A stretch of 48,789 bases of DNA from Opitutales bacterium (GCA_007130045.1 SLTG01000045.1:1-48789), one strand, 5' to 3'. Positions 30,339-36,990 are shown, counted from the first letter of the stretch. A program made the numbers and translations. Notes: generated by a model from the letters alone, not told the origin.

Positions 30339-30350
30339 AAGTCTCGTTTT

Positions 30351-31391
30351 ATGGCATCATCCAAACACAACGGATTTTTTATCGAACTTTCAGACGCCGG
30401 CTTTATCCTTGCCCGCACGACAGGATACGGTCATCCGATGACCGTTGAGGAGATTCGGGAGGCATCGGCCGATGACGATGGCGAAATCACGAGGATACTG
30501 GAGAGGATGGGAAGACCGTCCGGCGCCAGCGGGTATACACGCGCCCGTTGCGGGGTGTATCCCAAAGGCAGGGTGCTCGGGAAATTGACCGTCGACGAGC
30601 CCCGGAAAGCCAGGGACCCTCAATATCTTGAAGAGAAGGTGAAGTCGGATTTCAACATCGACCCTCGCGCCTACACCCTGGCAATCCTCAACTCGCGGAC
30701 AGGAGCGCCGGCGGATGTTGGCAGTCTGATGGAGAAGGAGTTCTTCCTTTGCGGCGCGCCCGCCGAAGCGTTCGAGCAACACCAGCGCGAACTGCTCCAA
30801 CGCGGAATATATCCGGACCGGCTCGAACTTGGAAGCGTCGCGACCCTCGGAGCGCTTGTCGACTACCACCGGTCGGCGGAAATCGAGCACCCGACGCTCG
30901 TTCTGGAAGTGGGCATGACCGACACCCGCCTGGTTGTCATCAACGGAGGCGCCGTCGATACGGTCCGCGCGGTGCCTCACGGCCTCCAATCGATGGTGGC
31001 GGTGGTTCAGAGGGATCTTGGATTGAAAGACAATGCGGCCGCAAAGCGATTGCTCTATTCCGATTCCTTCGATTTTAAGGAAATGGGGCCCAAACTGGTC
31101 GACCGCCTGCTTCGCGAGTTGCAATCCACCATCGGTTACTACGAAGTGCAAACCGGCCTGTCGGTGGGACAGGTCTTCTGCACAAAGAACCCGGAGCAGC
31201 TTTCGTGGCTCAATAAGACTTTTGCAAAGTCCCTTAATGTGGATCCTTTGACAATAAACTATTCCGAATGGCTCGAGCGGAATGAGATCCGTTTGGGCGG
31301 GAAGTTGAGCGCTGACGCTATTCCCTCGCACTGGCTCGGCCTTTTCGGACTCATGATTGAATCAATATCTCCCCAGGATGAAAAAAACTAG
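30351..31391 (+). CDS. pilM: PilM-like protein with degenerate nucleotide-binding loop
   Basis: A 346-residue cytoplasmic protein at the head of a pilM-N-O-P-Q-like run. The second half has the actin-like/SHS2 pattern of PilM: LVLEVGMTDTRLVVINGG near 184-201 resembles the phosphate-2 loop, and RLLRELQSTIGYYEV resembles the conserved helix after it. At the N-terminus, where PilM has GxDIG with the ATP-contacting loop, this protein has FFIELSDAGFILAR, and phosphate 2 has Glu instead of Asp. PilM normally binds the PilN tail and ATP. The start ATG 30351 (MASSKHNGFF) is preferred over a TTG at 30312. The last 14 bases overlap the next gene. Confidence 0.75.
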   Translation: MASSKHNGFFIELSDAGFILARTTGYGHPMTVEEIREASADDDGEITRILERMGRPSGASGYTRARCGVYPKGRVLGKLTVDEPRKARDPQYLEEKVKSDFNIDPRAYTLAILNSRTGAPADVGSLMEKEFFLCGAPAEAFEQHQRELLQRGIYPDRLELGSVATLGALVDYHRSAEIEHPTLVLEVGMTDTRLVVINGGAVDTVRAVPHGLQSMVAVVQRDLGLKDNAAAKRLLYSDSFDFKEMGPKLVDRLLRELQSTIGYYEVQTGLSVGQVFCTKNPEQLSWLNKTFAKSLNVDPLTINYSEWLERNEIRLGGKLSADAIPSHWLGLFGLMIESISPQDEKN

Positions 31392-31989
31392 AAGAGATTC
31401 CAGGCAGCCGCCGTGCTGGCACCCTGATTTCCGTAATCCCGCGGGATTGCCCGATGTCAAGGTTGTGCGGACTTCCTTCTTTTTGAACGCGTGCGCGATC
31501 GTGGTGTTCTGCACGCTTCTCATAGTCTTCCTTTACAGGGGATATGAACTGCGTGGGCTCAACGAGCAAATACAGTCGTGGGAGACGCGCATCGCGGAAA
31601 GGAGCCCCCAGAACGAGGAGGTGGTCGCTCTCAGCCGTGACTTCAGAGCCGAATCGCAGAAGGTGGAGCGTGCTGTCTCTTTTGTGAACTCGCCCGTACG
31701 ATCATCGGAGTTTCTTGCGGAACTCGCGCGGACCCTCCCCGATCGTGTCGTGCTTTCGAGAATCAATTTCCGCAGCGCGGCGGACGGACCCCGGATTGCG
31801 CTTTCCGGACGTATTCTCGGAACTTCTCAGCAGGCGACCGATATCGTATCCGATTATGAATTACAATTCTATGAGTATCCATATTTTGCGGACATTGTGA
31901 GCAGTGTTAACGTTACTTCATTATCCCGTAATCCAGAGACGGATACATTGTCCTTCAGCTTTACGTTGCTGTTGCGCGACCGCAATTGA
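31378..31989 (+). CDS. pilN: PilN-like inner-membrane alignment protein
   Basis: A 203-residue bitopic protein. A short cytoplasmic N-terminus (the PilM-binding side in the family) precedes one transmembrane helix (about residues 32-53), then a coiled coil and a periplasmic ferredoxin-like domain. The arrangement, size and gene order match PilN/GspL-C. The ATG at 31378 overlaps the previous gene by 14 bases; a TTG at 31357 is less likely. Around 31850-31960 the sequence turns more AT-rich than its neighbours, which also holds for the following gene. Confidence 0.75.
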   Translation: MKKTRRDSRQPPCWHPDFRNPAGLPDVKVVRTSFFLNACAIVVFCTLLIVFLYRGYELRGLNEQIQSWETRIAERSPQNEEVVALSRDFRAESQKVERAVSFVNSPVRSSEFLAELARTLPDRVVLSRINFRSAADGPRIALSGRILGTSQQATDIVSDYELQFYEYPYFADIVSSVNVTSLSRNPETDTLSFSFTLLLRDRN

Positions 31990-32003: not shown

Positions 32004-32570
32004 ATGAATCTTAAAGAATTGTTAATCAAGGGGAAGCAGCAACCGACTTTCGTTGCTTGTTTGATCTTATCCATCGTTTTGATCGCCGCCATATATATGC
32101 GCGGAGGCGAATTTTCGAAAGCTGAAGAACGGCTGAATGAGGTCACTAGAGAGGGCACGAGGATCGATGATAACATTAAAAACTCTGTAAATTTGAACAG
32201 TCATCTTGACTCCTTGCGTGGTATCTCCCAAGATATTAAAAGTCGCTTGATCCGACCGTCGGAACTGGCGCGGAACCTTCAATACTTTTATCGCCTGGAA
32301 TCCGAAACCGGCGTAGCCATCGCTTCTCTAAACCAACGCTCATTGCCGCCACGGGACAAAGATGAAAATGACGACAACACATACGTGCCGGTTGGATACG
32401 AGATCGCGGTTCAGGGCGACTATGCCGATCTGCTTGCCTTTATGCACGCGATCGAGAACGGCGTTCATTTCGCCCGCATTAACAGTTTCGAAGCCATCAG
32501 ATCCCAGCGGCAGGACGATGCCACAATGATGAGTTTATCCCTGAACCTGGAGCTTCTCGGACAGCGATGA
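32004..32570 (+). CDS. pilO: PilO-like inner-membrane alignment protein
   Basis: A 188-residue protein with one transmembrane helix (about residues 17-34), a coiled coil (about 38-75) and a ferredoxin-like periplasmic domain (VPVGYEIAVQGDYADLLAFM pattern near 125-145) as in PilO/GspM. It is expected to pair with the PilN-like protein and link the secretin to the inner-membrane machinery. It has one of the best ribosome sites in the window, AAAGGAGG, about eight bases before the ATG. The stop overlaps the next ATG (ATGA), showing translational coupling. Confidence 0.78.
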   Translation: MNLKELLIKGKQQPTFVACLILSIVLIAAIYMRGGEFSKAEERLNEVTREGTRIDDNIKNSVNLNSHLDSLRGISQDIKSRLIRPSELARNLQYFYRLESETGVAIASLNQRSLPPRDKDENDDNTYVPVGYEIAVQGDYADLLAFMHAIENGVHFARINSFEAIRSQRQDDATMMSLSLNLELLGQR

Positions 32571-33007
32571 AAACGATTATCACAACTTTAACGGTTTTAT
32601 TGACAGCGGCCTTTGTCGCGGTCCCGGTGCGGGCGCAGGTCACGCTTCCGGATGATCGAGAGGCGCTTCTTGAAACGGCGCGTAGTATTCTGGAACCTGA
32701 AGCGGCCGACTTGGATGAACTGCTCGACGGAATCGTGCTTCACCCCTTTCTTCCGCGAATGGATGTTGTCGCGGACGAGACGGCTCCAGCGGCGGGCCTG
32801 ACGGAAATTACCCTGAATCTCGTTCCGGACGGGACGATCTCCATGGGCGGGAGAAGCTTTTTGCTTTTTGAAGGACGCCCTGTCGGCGTCGGAGAGTATT
32901 TGTCTGTTGAATACCGAGGACGGACATACCAGGTGGAGGTGACGGGGATTTCAACGTCGTCCTACACGTTGCGGATGAATGATGAGGAAATTGAAAAGAA
33001 CCTTTAA
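32567..33007 (+). CDS. Exported protein in the PilP position
   Basis: A 146-residue protein with a signal peptide (cleavage after AVPVRAQ, about residue 24). The mature part is helical at first, then a small beta-rich domain ending in GRPVGVGEYLSVEYRG. PilP is a lipoprotein with a beta domain that touches secretin; this one lacks a lipobox, so it would be a soluble periplasmic version (as in the GspC homology region). Position between PilO and the secretin, and the ATGA overlap with the PilO-like gene, support the assignment. The family match itself is weak. Confidence 0.6.
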   Translation: MKTIITTLTVLLTAAFVAVPVRAQVTLPDDREALLETARSILEPEAADLDELLDGIVLHPFLPRMDVVADETAPAAGLTEITLNLVPDGTISMGGRSFLLFEGRPVGVGEYLSVEYRGRTYQVEVTGISTSSYTLRMNDEEIEKNL

Positions 33008-33023: not shown

Positions 33024-35297
33024 ATGAAGACCCCCGGTTTGTGGATTGTTTGTTTGTGCGCTTGCGCGGCGTTTGCCTTCCCTGTTTCGGGACAGGAGGA
33101 CGTTGTGGAAGTTGAATCCGTGTCGATTGACGCGCTGTTGGAGGATGTCGCGGTAAGTCCGCGGGATCCTGAAGTTTACGAGTCCGTAAGTGAAGCGGTT
33201 TCATCCGAACCGGAGCGTGCCGGGGAAATTGCCGCCGCGTTAACGGCGGAGTTCCCGGATCACGCGAACGTGATCGTACGCACCGTGATCTTGGCTTTGC
33301 CCGAGGGTGCGGATGTTGCAAGTGTCGTTCGGGCGGCGGTGGGCGGTTCGCCCGATTCGGTCGAACTGATTGTGAGCGGAGCCGCCGAGGCGGCGCCCGA
33401 TCAGGTCGAGATTATCGTGGAGTCCGCCAATGACGCGCTTCGCGAATTTGAACTCGGAGGAGACCACGATACAATGGAGGTGGATGCCGTAAACGGCGAG
33501 AACGACGTCGAGGAAGGCGCTGAAGTTGTCACGCCTGAAGAAAGCGTTGTGGAGGTTGCCGATGAGGAAATGGACACGATTTCGGTGGATTTTCCGAACG
33601 TGGAGATCCGGACGATCCTTCGGAGCGTCGCCGATCTGTACGACCTTAACCTTGTCATTCCCGAGGAATTTACCGGGAGAGCGTCGATAACGCTTCGCGA
33701 CGTGACGTGGCCGCAGGTCTTCGATATTGTGTTGTCGCCGGTTGGATACACATATCGTGAGGATGATGGTATTATAATGATTGTTCGCGACGAGTACGTG
33801 GATCCCAGCATAGCCGACGGCCGGGTGACTGTGCATGAGGACGGCACATTGACCGTGGACTTTCAGGACGTTCCGATCTCCGAGATCGTGAGCCTGGTTT
33901 CGTCGGAGGCGGATCTGAATATTATGATTCCGCAGCACTTCATGGTTATTGCCGCGGAGGAGACGGCGACGATACGCTGGCGAAACGTAGGCTGGCAGCA
34001 GGTCTTTGAGAGGTTGATGTCCGAAGTCGGGTACGGATACATCGAGCGCGATGACATTATCATGATCGAAACGATCGAACGAATTGAAGCGGTTCCGCCT
34101 GCGACACGGGTCGTGCAGGTGAAGTATCCGTCGGCCTCGGTGATCGCGGAATTCGTCCAAAACCTTTCGGGGGTTCAGCAGGTTCAGGTCGATTCCGGAA
34201 CCAATGTGTTGATCGTTACCGCTTCGGAAGGGGCGATGCGTGAAGTGCAGAGCCTCGTGAATCGCCTCGATCAACCGGCGCAACAGGTGATGATTGAAGC
34301 GATGTTTGTCGAAGTCTCGGATACCGACGTCAAGGACCTCGGCATCGATTGGACGTCGCTCACGGGGTACGAATTGGAGGCGGGCCCGGCGATTCACCGA
34401 TGGGAACGCCTACAGGGGCAGGCTGATCCCGATTTCAGCGACTTGATGGATGATATCGGGAACGCGCGCCATACGGAGGCGATCTTCTCCGCGCCGGAAT
34501 TCAATATGATATTGCGGGCGCTGCAGCAGCAGACCGACGCGCGCCTGGTTTCCAATCCGACGATCGTGACGATGAACGCCGAGGAGGCGGAGATCCAGGT
34601 GGTTGACTACCTGTATCGCGACGGCGCGATCAACGTTTTCGGCACCGGTCAGCCGGGCGATCCCGTGCGCCAGTCGTTCGAGGAGCCGATCGAGCTTGAG
34701 CCCCGTCCGGGAGTTGTGCTCAGGGTCACTCCGACGATCAGCGGAGGCGATCTGATAAACCTTCAGGCGCGACCGGAGATCAACAACATCGTCGGCCAGC
34801 AGATCCTCGGTCAGGGCCAGGTGATTCCGACGATTCGCCAGCGTTCCGTTGAGACGAAGGTGATGGTGAAAAGCGGGCAGACTCTTGCGATGAGCGGTCT
34901 GGTTGACGAAGATTCGGTGACAACGGAAAGCAAGGTGCCGTTGCTTGGGGACATGCCGGTGGTGGGACGCCTGTTCCGCAGTGAATCCCGGGATATGCAG
35001 AAGAAGAACCAGATCATATTTATCACCGCGACGATCACCGATCCGAACCGTCACAATTACACGGATTTTATCGACGAACGCCGTATGATGGAAATGGACC
35101 TCACGCACAGACAGGTTCAGGGATCGCAGTATCAGCGAACGGAGGAAGAGGAGGAATACCTGCGTGATCTCGGCCGCTATCGAAGCGAGCAGCAACGGGA
35201 ACAAATCCGGAACATGATGCGCGAGTTGGAGGCCGAGGAGAACGACGACGTTCGTGACTCTCGCGGCGCGCGCACGGGTCCTCGTCAAAGAAGGTAA
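33024..35297 (+). CDS. pilQ: Secretin (PilQ/GspD-type outer-membrane channel)
   Basis: A 757-residue outer-membrane secretin with a signal peptide (cleavage near VSGQED, about residue 24). Residues 52-142 are an Ala/Glu-rich helical module not usual for secretins. Two N0/STN-like domains follow in tandem, about 187-256 and 277-347, both beginning VDF and ending IIMI. An N1/NolW-like domain is at about 362-430. The secretin core, about 435-675, has the LVSNPTIVTMN strand, the GVVLRVTPTI strand and the VPLLGDMPVVGRLFRS motif. The C-terminus is a charged coiled coil. A weak ribosome site precedes ATG 33024. PilQ is the working name; GspD is equally possible because no pilin, PilB or PilC gene is here. 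Confidence 0.92.
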   Translation: MKTPGLWIVCLCACAAFAFPVSGQEDVVEVESVSIDALLEDVAVSPRDPEVYESVSEAVSSEPERAGEIAAALTAEFPDHANVIVRTVILALPEGADVASVVRAAVGGSPDSVELIVSGAAEAAPDQVEIIVESANDALREFELGGDHDTMEVDAVNGENDVEEGAEVVTPEESVVEVADEEMDTISVDFPNVEIRTILRSVADLYDLNLVIPEEFTGRASITLRDVTWPQVFDIVLSPVGYTYREDDGIIMIVRDEYVDPSIADGRVTVHEDGTLTVDFQDVPISEIVSLVSSEADLNIMIPQHFMVIAAEETATIRWRNVGWQQVFERLMSEVGYGYIERDDIIMIETIERIEAVPPATRVVQVKYPSASVIAEFVQNLSGVQQVQVDSGTNVLIVTASEGAMREVQSLVNRLDQPAQQVMIEAMFVEVSDTDVKDLGIDWTSLTGYELEAGPAIHRWERLQGQADPDFSDLMDDIGNARHTEAIFSAPEFNMILRALQQQTDARLVSNPTIVTMNAEEAEIQVVDYLYRDGAINVFGTGQPGDPVRQSFEEPIELEPRPGVVLRVTPTISGGDLINLQARPEINNIVGQQILGQGQVIPTIRQRSVETKVMVKSGQTLAMSGLVDEDSVTTESKVPLLGDMPVVGRLFRSESRDMQKKNQIIFITATITDPNRHNYTDFIDERRMMEMDLTHRQVQGSQYQRTEEEEEYLRDLGRYRSEQQREQIRNMMRELEAEENDDVRDSRGARTGPRQRR
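33183..33437 (+). repeat. N-terminal helical module of the secretin, shared with the next gene
   Basis: Residues about 54-138 of the secretin follow the pattern AVSS-[ED]-PE-x-A-x-EI...L...FPD...LPE...AAPD. The same pattern occurs at residues about 46-119 of the downstream protein (35443-35664). This indicates gene-internal duplication or shared ancestry of an exported helical domain. Confidence 0.75.
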
Positions 35298-35307
35298 GGG
35301 AGGAACC

Positions 35308-36990
35308 ATGAAAATAATCCGATCTATTCATCAATTAGTCGCGGCGGCCGCATTGTTGGTCTGGTGTCCGCTTGTCATCCATGCACAGGAGGATCTCCCG
35401 GGAGCCATCGAAGGAGCGGACGAAGGGGACGCCAGGTTCCAGGCGGTGACCGACGCGGTTTCCTCCGATCCGGAAATGGCCGCTGAGATCGTGGGATCCC
35501 TGGCCCGGAATTTTCCCGATGCCGCGGCGGCGATTGCTGTCAGCGCGATCGAAGGACTTCCGGAACCGAGTTACGAGAACGTGACGGCCATTATGGAGGC
35601 CGCCGTGGAATCGGCGCCGGACCAGCGGGAGGCGATCGAAGCAAACGTTGCGCGGGCGGCGCCCGAATTTTTCGACCGGGAAGAAGAAGCCCCTGAGGCG
35701 TCCGAGACCGAGGTTGCCGATGCCGAAGTTCAAACCGAAACGGAGGAGGCCGGTGACGAGCCGCTGCCGGAGCGTTTGCGGCGCGAGGTGGATCTGGTCA
35801 CGTCACTGATCGCGAGCTATCCGGAAAATACGGCGGCGGTGACGCGTCGATCCTTGGCGCGCGTTGCCGAAGAAGAGGCGTTTTGGAGCGTGACGATCGT
35901 CGAGACCGCTTTGGCGGCCGCGCCGGATCGGGAGGAAGAAATCGTTCGAATGGCGATTTTCGGGGCGCCGCATTACGAAGCGGAGGTTCGCGAAGCGGCG
36001 GGTTGGGATCCTGTTCCCGAGGAAACGGACGAGGAATTGCCGGAGCAACTTCGGCGGGAGCTGGGCCTGGTGAGGTCGCTTGTCGAGACGTATCCCGAGA
36101 ATGCGGCGACGACGACGCGACGCTCGGTCGTGCGTGTTTCCGGGGAAGATGCGTATTGGAGCGTCGCGGTTACGATGGCCGCCCTGGAGTTGGCACCCGA
36201 GTTGGAGGAAGAGATTGTTCGAGAAGCGATCGTGGCGGCGCCGCATTACGAAGCGGAGATTCGCGAAGCGGTTGGATGGGAGCCCGAGGATGTCGCGGTC
36301 GACGAGGAGCCCGATGTCGACGAGCCTTTCCGGATTGACGCTGTTGTCGAGAGGACCGAATTGCGTGACATGACCTATTTCGTCCGCTTCGACATGCGCG
36401 GGACCGAGAGGAGCTTGAGACGCCGGATGCTCGAAAGCCTGGAGCTGCGCGTTGGGCCGGAACGGTATTTCGATCCCTACGAAGGGCGGTATCTGGAACG
36501 CCATCAGGCGGTCATTACGGGCGACGATATTATCGGGCTGCCGTTCAAGATCGTGCCGGGAGATACCGAACAGGTCGATCGTCTGGCTGCGGTATTGAAG
36601 GAATTCGAGACGAGGATCGACGATGCGCGGGAGTTTGTTAAACGGAAGGTGGCCGAAGAGGAAACGGTGCTTCTCGATGATCACCGGCTTACTCTTGGAA
36701 CGGTATATTTATATCCGTCCAGGAAGGAAATCGACGCGGAGATGCGCGTTGATTTCAACGATGATCGTTACCTCCTGATGATCGGCAGCTCGATTACGAT
36801 CAGCCCGGAGACGGTGGCGGGGATCCGTCACCTCGTCGAAAATGTTGCCCGGTACGACCGGGAGTATAAAGAGCATTTGGAAGCAAGGGAACGGCAGAGA
36901 ATTGAGTTTCGCGATTTTACCCGGATGGATCCCGCCGACGTCGAGGATGACGACGAGGAGGTGGAGTTGGAAGTGGAAGAATCGTTGTGA
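35308..36990 (+). CDS. Exported acidic repeat protein of unknown function, secretin-linked
   Basis: A 560-residue protein with a signal peptide (cleavage after VIHAQ, about residue 27). I recognise no family. Domains: a helical module (about 46-119) like the one in the secretin; an acidic linker (about 123-151); two tandem repeats of about 83 residues (153-235 and 244-325), each ending APHYEAE-x-REA-x-GW; an acidic linker; then a mixed alpha/beta domain (about 340-505), a basic helix and a Glu/Asp-rich tail. The ATG has an ideal AAGGGAGG ribosome site, 10 bases after the secretin stop. A strong terminator follows, so it is the last gene of the pil-like operon. A structural partner of the secretin, analogous in placement to FimV or TsaP, is an inference. 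Confidence 0.85.
   Translation: MKIIRSIHQLVAAAALLVWCPLVIHAQEDLPGAIEGADEGDARFQAVTDAVSSDPEMAAEIVGSLARNFPDAAAAIAVSAIEGLPEPSYENVTAIMEAAVESAPDQREAIEANVARAAPEFFDREEEAPEASETEVADAEVQTETEEAGDEPLPERLRREVDLVTSLIASYPENTAAVTRRSLARVAEEEAFWSVTIVETALAAAPDREEEIVRMAIFGAPHYEAEVREAAGWDPVPEETDEELPEQLRRELGLVRSLVETYPENAATTTRRSVVRVSGEDAYWSVAVTMAALELAPELEEEIVREAIVAAPHYEAEIREAVGWEPEDVAVDEEPDVDEPFRIDAVVERTELRDMTYFVRFDMRGTERSLRRRMLESLELRVGPERYFDPYEGRYLERHQAVITGDDIIGLPFKIVPGDTEQVDRLAAVLKEFETRIDDAREFVKRKVAEEETVLLDDHRLTLGTVYLYPSRKEIDAEMRVDFNDDRYLLMIGSSITISPETVAGIRHLVENVARYDREYKEHLEARERQRIEFRDFTRMDPADVEDDDEEVELEVEESL
35764..36282 (+). repeat. Two tandem repeats of about 83 codons
   Basis: Unit 1 (35764-36012) and unit 2 (36037-36282) encode similar helical domains beginning LPE-[RQ]-LRRE and ending in GW-[DE]-P. 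A 35-base block near the end of each (35964-35998 and 36237-36271) differs at a single base, pointing to a recent duplication or gene conversion. Confidence 0.92.

Follow-up and report, generated by a model that had tools for sequence, protein, structure and literature searches.

Why should a secretin and the exported protein encoded immediately after it begin with the same helical module? The question arises from a 48,789-nucleotide stretch of DNA from Opitutales bacterium (GCA_007130045.1 SLTG01000045.1:1-48789), here called the window and meant at its full length; the genome it belongs to is verrucomicrobial and of soda-lake lineage. A first-pass annotation made from the sequence alone had aligned the N-termini of the two proteins by their shared motifs and proposed that the module lets them assemble together, for example as a periplasmic collar or a peptidoglycan-binding partner of the channel. 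The two genes are indeed consecutive at the place it gave, and its motif alignment is correct. The second gene, whose product we call P2, starts 10 bases past the secretin stop, and its ATG is preceded by a strong Shine-Dalgarno sequence (gggagg). Both genes and their parts are as follows, with model confidence given as the predicted local distance difference test (pLDDT).

33024..35297, plus strand: secretin gene, ATG 33024 to stop 35297, 757 amino acids (Pfam Secretin 4.7e-38, Secretin_N 2.6e-11, STN 8e-11; TIGR02515 2.6e-63)
33114..33458, plus strand: the secretin's helical module, residues 31-145 (alignments; AlphaFold helices; no indels among 4 orthologues)
33459..33575, plus strand: acidic linker joining the module to N0, rich in indels, residues 146-184 (16 acidic and 0 basic of 39 residues; pLDDT ~34-45)
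34518..35039, plus strand: secretin core domain, residues 499-672 (Pfam)
35308..36990, plus strand: P2 gene, ATG 35308 to stop 36990, 560 amino acids (signal peptide, three linker-joined helical modules, C-terminal domain)
35425..35661, plus strand: P2 module 1 (N), residues ~40-118 (alignments; helices 40-53, 55-68, 70-83, 89-102, 104-117)
35764..36000, plus strand: P2 module 2 (R1), residues 153-231 (profile E 5.9e-8 and 7.9e-8; same five-helix pattern)
36040..36276, plus strand: P2 module 3 (R2), residues 245-323 (profile E 3e-5; close duplicate of R1)
36334..36942, plus strand: P2C, conserved C-terminal companion domain, residues 343-545 (profile A5/A12; adjoins a secretin in all loci read)

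Local alignment of the secretin and P2 N-termini gave a score of 143 against a shuffled mean of 36.3 (standard deviation 6.6; Gumbel p ~1.7e-9), and hhalign comparison of the secretin modules with the P2 modules, orthologues included, returned a probability of 99.0 (E 2e-18), so that the kinship suggested by the motifs holds at the level of profiles. Since the modules are Ala/Glu-rich repeats, the order of their helices was also permuted; of 120 orders, the natural one came top in each of the three comparisons, by a small margin such as repeats would give. Chance or composition as the source of the similarity was ruled out by the shuffles, by the profile comparison and, more weakly, by the helix permutation.

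The module is Ala/Glu/Pro-rich and net acidic, being built from repeats of ~15-residue helices. AlphaFold placed seven short helices in residues 31-145 of the secretin (35-44, 53-61, 63-76, 78-90, 98-108, 110-123 and 125-145; pLDDT mostly 82-96) and three separate five-helix units in P2, at 40-117, 155-230 and 246-322 (pLDDT mostly 83-95). Helices 3 and 4 are separated by the same break in unit 1 of P2 and by a similar one in units 2 and 3. We count these units as three modules because the module profile also finds the second and the third. The module is accordingly present in both proteins, as first described, while the secretin copy is longer than had been stated and P2 holds three copies where one had been noted. 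The P2 orthologue of G004 has two modules, R2 being absent, so that in the sub-lineage of the window P2 carries two or three copies and the secretin one, each behind a signal peptide. From these models the module is predicted to be a periplasmic alpha-solenoid.

In the secretin, the signal peptide is followed by the module, the acidic linker, N0/STN, a second N0-like domain, N1 (Secretin_N), the secretin core and a charged tail. We label the protein PilQ/GspD-like, and not a formal member of PilQ, because it passes the Pfam cut-offs for the secretin core, N0/STN and Secretin_N but falls below those of NCBIfam PilQ (TIGR02515, 214.5 bits against 284.35) and NCBIfam GspD (TIGR02517, 203 bits against 351). 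AMIN was looked for in the secretin and in the whole window genome and was not found. Among the four orthologues, the adjacent linker has 57 insertion columns whereas the module has no indels, which suggests that the secretin module is maintained as a folded unit.

Pfam and NCBIfam gave no consistent family match for the module, with AMIN, TPR and LysM all unmatched; 24 module members gave no TPR match in Pfam at E 0.05, and no peptidoglycan-binding family was matched by the module. XPC-binding, EAD1, DUF3656 and other isolated weak matches, each seen in one member and at chance level, were rejected. Sequence comparison with solved structures gave nothing convincing for the module, P2 or P2C. 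A fold search with the module recovered only generic helical repeats, chiefly designed repeat proteins (best Z ~10, in the tool's caution range for helical models), and Foldseek gave nothing at E 0.001 or better; generic similarity of this kind between predicted models would not establish the fold as new. P2C matched no Pfam family and no solved structure, and its AlphaFold model has pLDDT <50 over most of its length, four similar sequences being in the alignment. A literature search on the module, or on a domain common to secretin and exopolysaccharide systems, found nothing relevant. The module and P2C thus appear to be two undescribed domains, neither with a Pfam family or a sequence match to a solved structure.

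The partnership between secretin and P2 resides, by its distribution, in P2C. Among 177 genomes of the order, 14 give a match to the P2C profile, and in all 13 loci read, from three families, the gene with P2C immediately follows that of a secretin, so that the core domain of the downstream protein was never seen without a secretin neighbour, in keeping with the first-pass annotation. In a separate draw of 103 genomes, 9 have a closely orthologous secretin (E at or below 1e-60), and every one of these carries P2C. Judged by this gene order, P2C is an obligate secretin companion and the ancestral, secretin-linked part of P2. P2 in families f4 and f23 (~235-262 amino acids) consists of a signal peptide and the C-terminal domain and nothing else. 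In genus g2 it has 267 amino acids in G002 and 811 in G001, with the companion domain C-terminal; a long, unrelated-looking stretch stands ahead of that domain in the 811-residue homologue (L086:9094-11529).

Both proteins have the module at four loci, neither has it at nine, and no mixed locus was seen, so the two proteins have or lack it together, which supports the first-pass proposal in this respect. The four complete loci with the module belong to genera g1 and g3, and all nine module-free loci to f4, f23 and genus g2; a fifth genome, G005, has the module in its truncated secretin. The module does not create the pairing, since most P2 proteins and secretins are paired without it, and the proposal that it makes the partnership fails in f4, f23 and genus g2, where neither protein has it. 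The secretin-P2 pairing is, as far as these loci tell, older than the module. The secretins of g1 and g3 are 69-77% identical, against ~42% to those of g2, and because of this much greater closeness the module was probably gained by both proteins in a single event in one sub-lineage.

A genome survey likewise overturned the idea of a module confined to secretin loci. Searches with either the secretin or P2 found a third module protein in the window genome (G000:C37:15084-15575, 164 amino acids, with a signal peptide), whose gene is directly upstream of those for a beta-barrel porin (BBP2_2), a 202-residue Poly_export/SLBB protein and a Wzc-like kinase. This locus has the marks of export through a short outer-membrane polysaccharide export (OPX) protein and a beta-barrel, namely an OPX of <=280 amino acids with Poly_export (PF02563 9e-22), an outer-membrane barrel (BBP2_2 1.5e-24) and Wzz/kinase genes nearby (Wzz/GNVR/AAA_31). 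In family f1 the barrel gene adjoins the module gene in six genomes, and two more cases lie at contig ends. A profile of 24 modules picked out relatives in 78 of the 384 genomes searched from the class, most of them frames of ~200 amino acids, and in ~30 loci related modules stand beside genes for a BBP2_2 barrel, a short OPX and Wzc. Among the strong matches outside f1 whose surroundings were read, ~20 are beside barrel, OPX or Wzc genes and about a dozen are not; no further secretin was found near modules in the loci read outside f1. The module is therefore not secretin-specific. It belongs chiefly to polysaccharide-export loci, and its widespread home in the class is a small exported protein encoded beside beta-barrel, short-OPX and Wzc genes. 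In a tree of the module core (75 columns), the f1 polysaccharide-locus, secretin and P2 modules form one group separated from f29/f33 (support 99/99), with weak support for the branching order among the secretin, P2 and polysaccharide-locus copies.

Some module proteins are linked to neither polysaccharide nor secretin genes (L114, L117, L120, L181, L188, L198 and L218), several of them being second copies whose genomes contain a linked one too. Away from both kinds of gene, the module stands at the N-terminus of a 564-residue exported protein with weak TPR matches (L044:6703-8397, G005 contig C48), and two long frames of 871 and 947 amino acids give serial module matches (L211, G730 contig C6, ~282000-284400). 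In L116:4382-6016 (G416), a FecR-like-looking protein is followed by ~16-residue Ala/Pro helical repeats similar to the module, possibly the same type of repeat in another context.

Upstream of the secretin and P2, the operon runs through genes for PilM-like, PilN-like and PilO-like proteins and for a small exported protein placed where PilP would be.

30348..31391, plus strand: PilM-like protein gene, the operon's first (TIGR01175 31.8 bits, under its cut-off)
31357..31989, plus strand: PilN/GspL-C-like inner-membrane protein gene (GspL_C E 9.5e-4 and PilN E 0.011, both under cut-off; position)
32004..32570, plus strand: PilO/GspM-like inner-membrane protein gene (PilO E 0.005, under cut-off; type II secretion GspM E 9e-4)
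32567..33007, plus strand: small exported protein gene in the pilP position (position and sequence only)

The order pilM-pilN-pilO ahead of a secretin and these weak matches, every one under its cut-off, fit a PilQ setting; a Pfam search of the 32567..33007 protein gave no match to PilP. The product of the operon would be a type IV pilus/type II secretion-like machine. On the 3' side of P2 the window has a CAAX-type protease gene on the opposite strand. A large exported protein with immunoglobulin-like repeats is encoded 3' of P2 in G006 (L040:1-4738) and in family f4 (L143, L144, L147), and not in the window. The 3.4-Mb window genome probably encodes several pilus or secretion machines, because 11 matches to the T2SSE ATPase family (PF00437) exceed the cut-off in it (contigs C92, C68, C109, C113, C2, C72, C26 and C60).

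By analogy, the arrangement resembles PilQ-AMIN with TsaP, or a secretin with OutB, in outline, the defining AMIN and LysM being absent. PilQ has an AMIN anchor N-terminal to N0 (PMC10653833), and LspD has a SPOR anchor there (PMC9239104). The secretin described here is like PilQ in lying in an operon that may be of pilMNO type and in bearing a further envelope domain after the signal peptide and ahead of N0, but that domain is not AMIN; it is a helical repeat also borne by the protein of the next gene. TsaP carries a LysM-like peptidoglycan-binding domain. P2 is likewise a separate exported protein dedicated to a secretin, with N-terminal modules and a C-terminal domain, but Pfam found no LysM in it, it is encoded directly after the secretin, and P2C matches no family. 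GspB/OutB is a companion that tethers a secretin to peptidoglycan (PMC9239104), and P2 could similarly anchor its secretin in the envelope; OutB, however, has an inner-membrane anchor and an HR domain, whereas P2 is made up of a signal peptide, helical modules and a C-terminal domain without a match. PilQ of Akkermansia (Amuc_1098), likewise a PilQ-like secretin of Verrucomicrobiota that is extended at its N-terminus by helices, is reported to have a TPR-containing, BamD-like region there, which its authors likened to pilotins (PMC4960237). The present secretin differs from it in scoring 122.4 bits against the NF042912 cut-off of 750 and in having a module without a TPR match. The class-wide host locus of the module resembles the composite short-OPX/beta-barrel polysaccharide translocon (PMC9601211), the window genome having the 202-residue OPX, the BBP2_2 barrel and Wzc; the small exported protein with the module is an addition to these components, and a term search of PMC9601211 found no mention of periplasmic or hypothetical accessory proteins.

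We favour, with somewhat better than even confidence, the reading that the module is a shuffled alpha-solenoid used for docking in the periplasm, which takes the place of the peptidoglycan anchors of other secretins and tethers or reinforces the channel. P2C would contact the periplasmic part of the secretin, as suggested by its being the one part of P2 that is conserved with the secretin. The modules, strung on flexible acidic linkers and at the AMIN/SPOR position of other secretins, would serve as docking beads. They would bind a shared partner in the periplasm or outer membrane, or else one another, and when bound they would tether, reinforce or stiffen the channel. A common partner is slightly preferred over direct packing because related modules serve polysaccharide loci where no module-bearing secretin was found. 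Several points weigh against this explanation. The partner of the module stays putative; the joint presence or absence of the module says little about joint function because there was probably one gain; the module could be a weakly constrained spacer because its sequence is far less conserved than that of N0 (41-48% against 78-83%); and outside f1, between a third and two fifths of the strongly matching module proteins are away from export genes.

If the modules of secretin and P2 instead packed directly into a joint periplasmic collar round the channel, the homology of modules encoded by neighbouring genes of the same operon, their both-or-neither occurrence and the several copies per P2 chain would all be expected. 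We nevertheless find this doubtful, though worth serious consideration, as the pairing predates the module, related modules occur in polysaccharide loci of genomes where the module was found on no secretin, and only one gain is probable. It is unlikely that the module binds peptidoglycan in place of an AMIN or SPOR anchor, with P2 in the role of TsaP: it does occupy the same position just ahead of N0, no AMIN occurs anywhere in the window genome and the module is used in two envelope-spanning machines, yet it matches no peptidoglycan-binding family and is net acidic and helical, unlike AMIN, SPOR and LysM. We give rather little credence to an extension of the docking idea in which one module with one common partner would serve both the secretin machine and the short-OPX/beta-barrel translocon, coupling or co-localising pilus function or protein secretion with exopolysaccharide export. 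A helical spacer of no functional consequence, which recombination had spread among adjacent or repeated genes, would agree with the simple Ala/Glu/Pro repeat, the varying copy number in P2 and the fusion of the module to other exported proteins (L044, L211); it is very unlikely, given a secretin module free of indels next to a linker full of them, a conserved helix order and the retention of the module in both proteins at all four complete loci. Hardest to credit is a pilotin- or chaperone-like solenoid aiding secretin targeting in cis, for which the Amuc_1098 N-terminus, TPR-containing and compared with pilotins (PMC4960237), offers a precedent, whereas the module has no TPR match and its relatives elsewhere are unlinked to secretins.

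The docking module that we favour, together with the obligate companion P2C, would extend the known set of secretin-machine parts by two undescribed domains, and a periplasmic part has apparently moved between two unrelated outer-membrane exporters. These domains may offer a handle on how secretins that lack AMIN are anchored in Verrucomicrobiota, and on the role of the small accessory protein in verrucomicrobial polysaccharide export loci.

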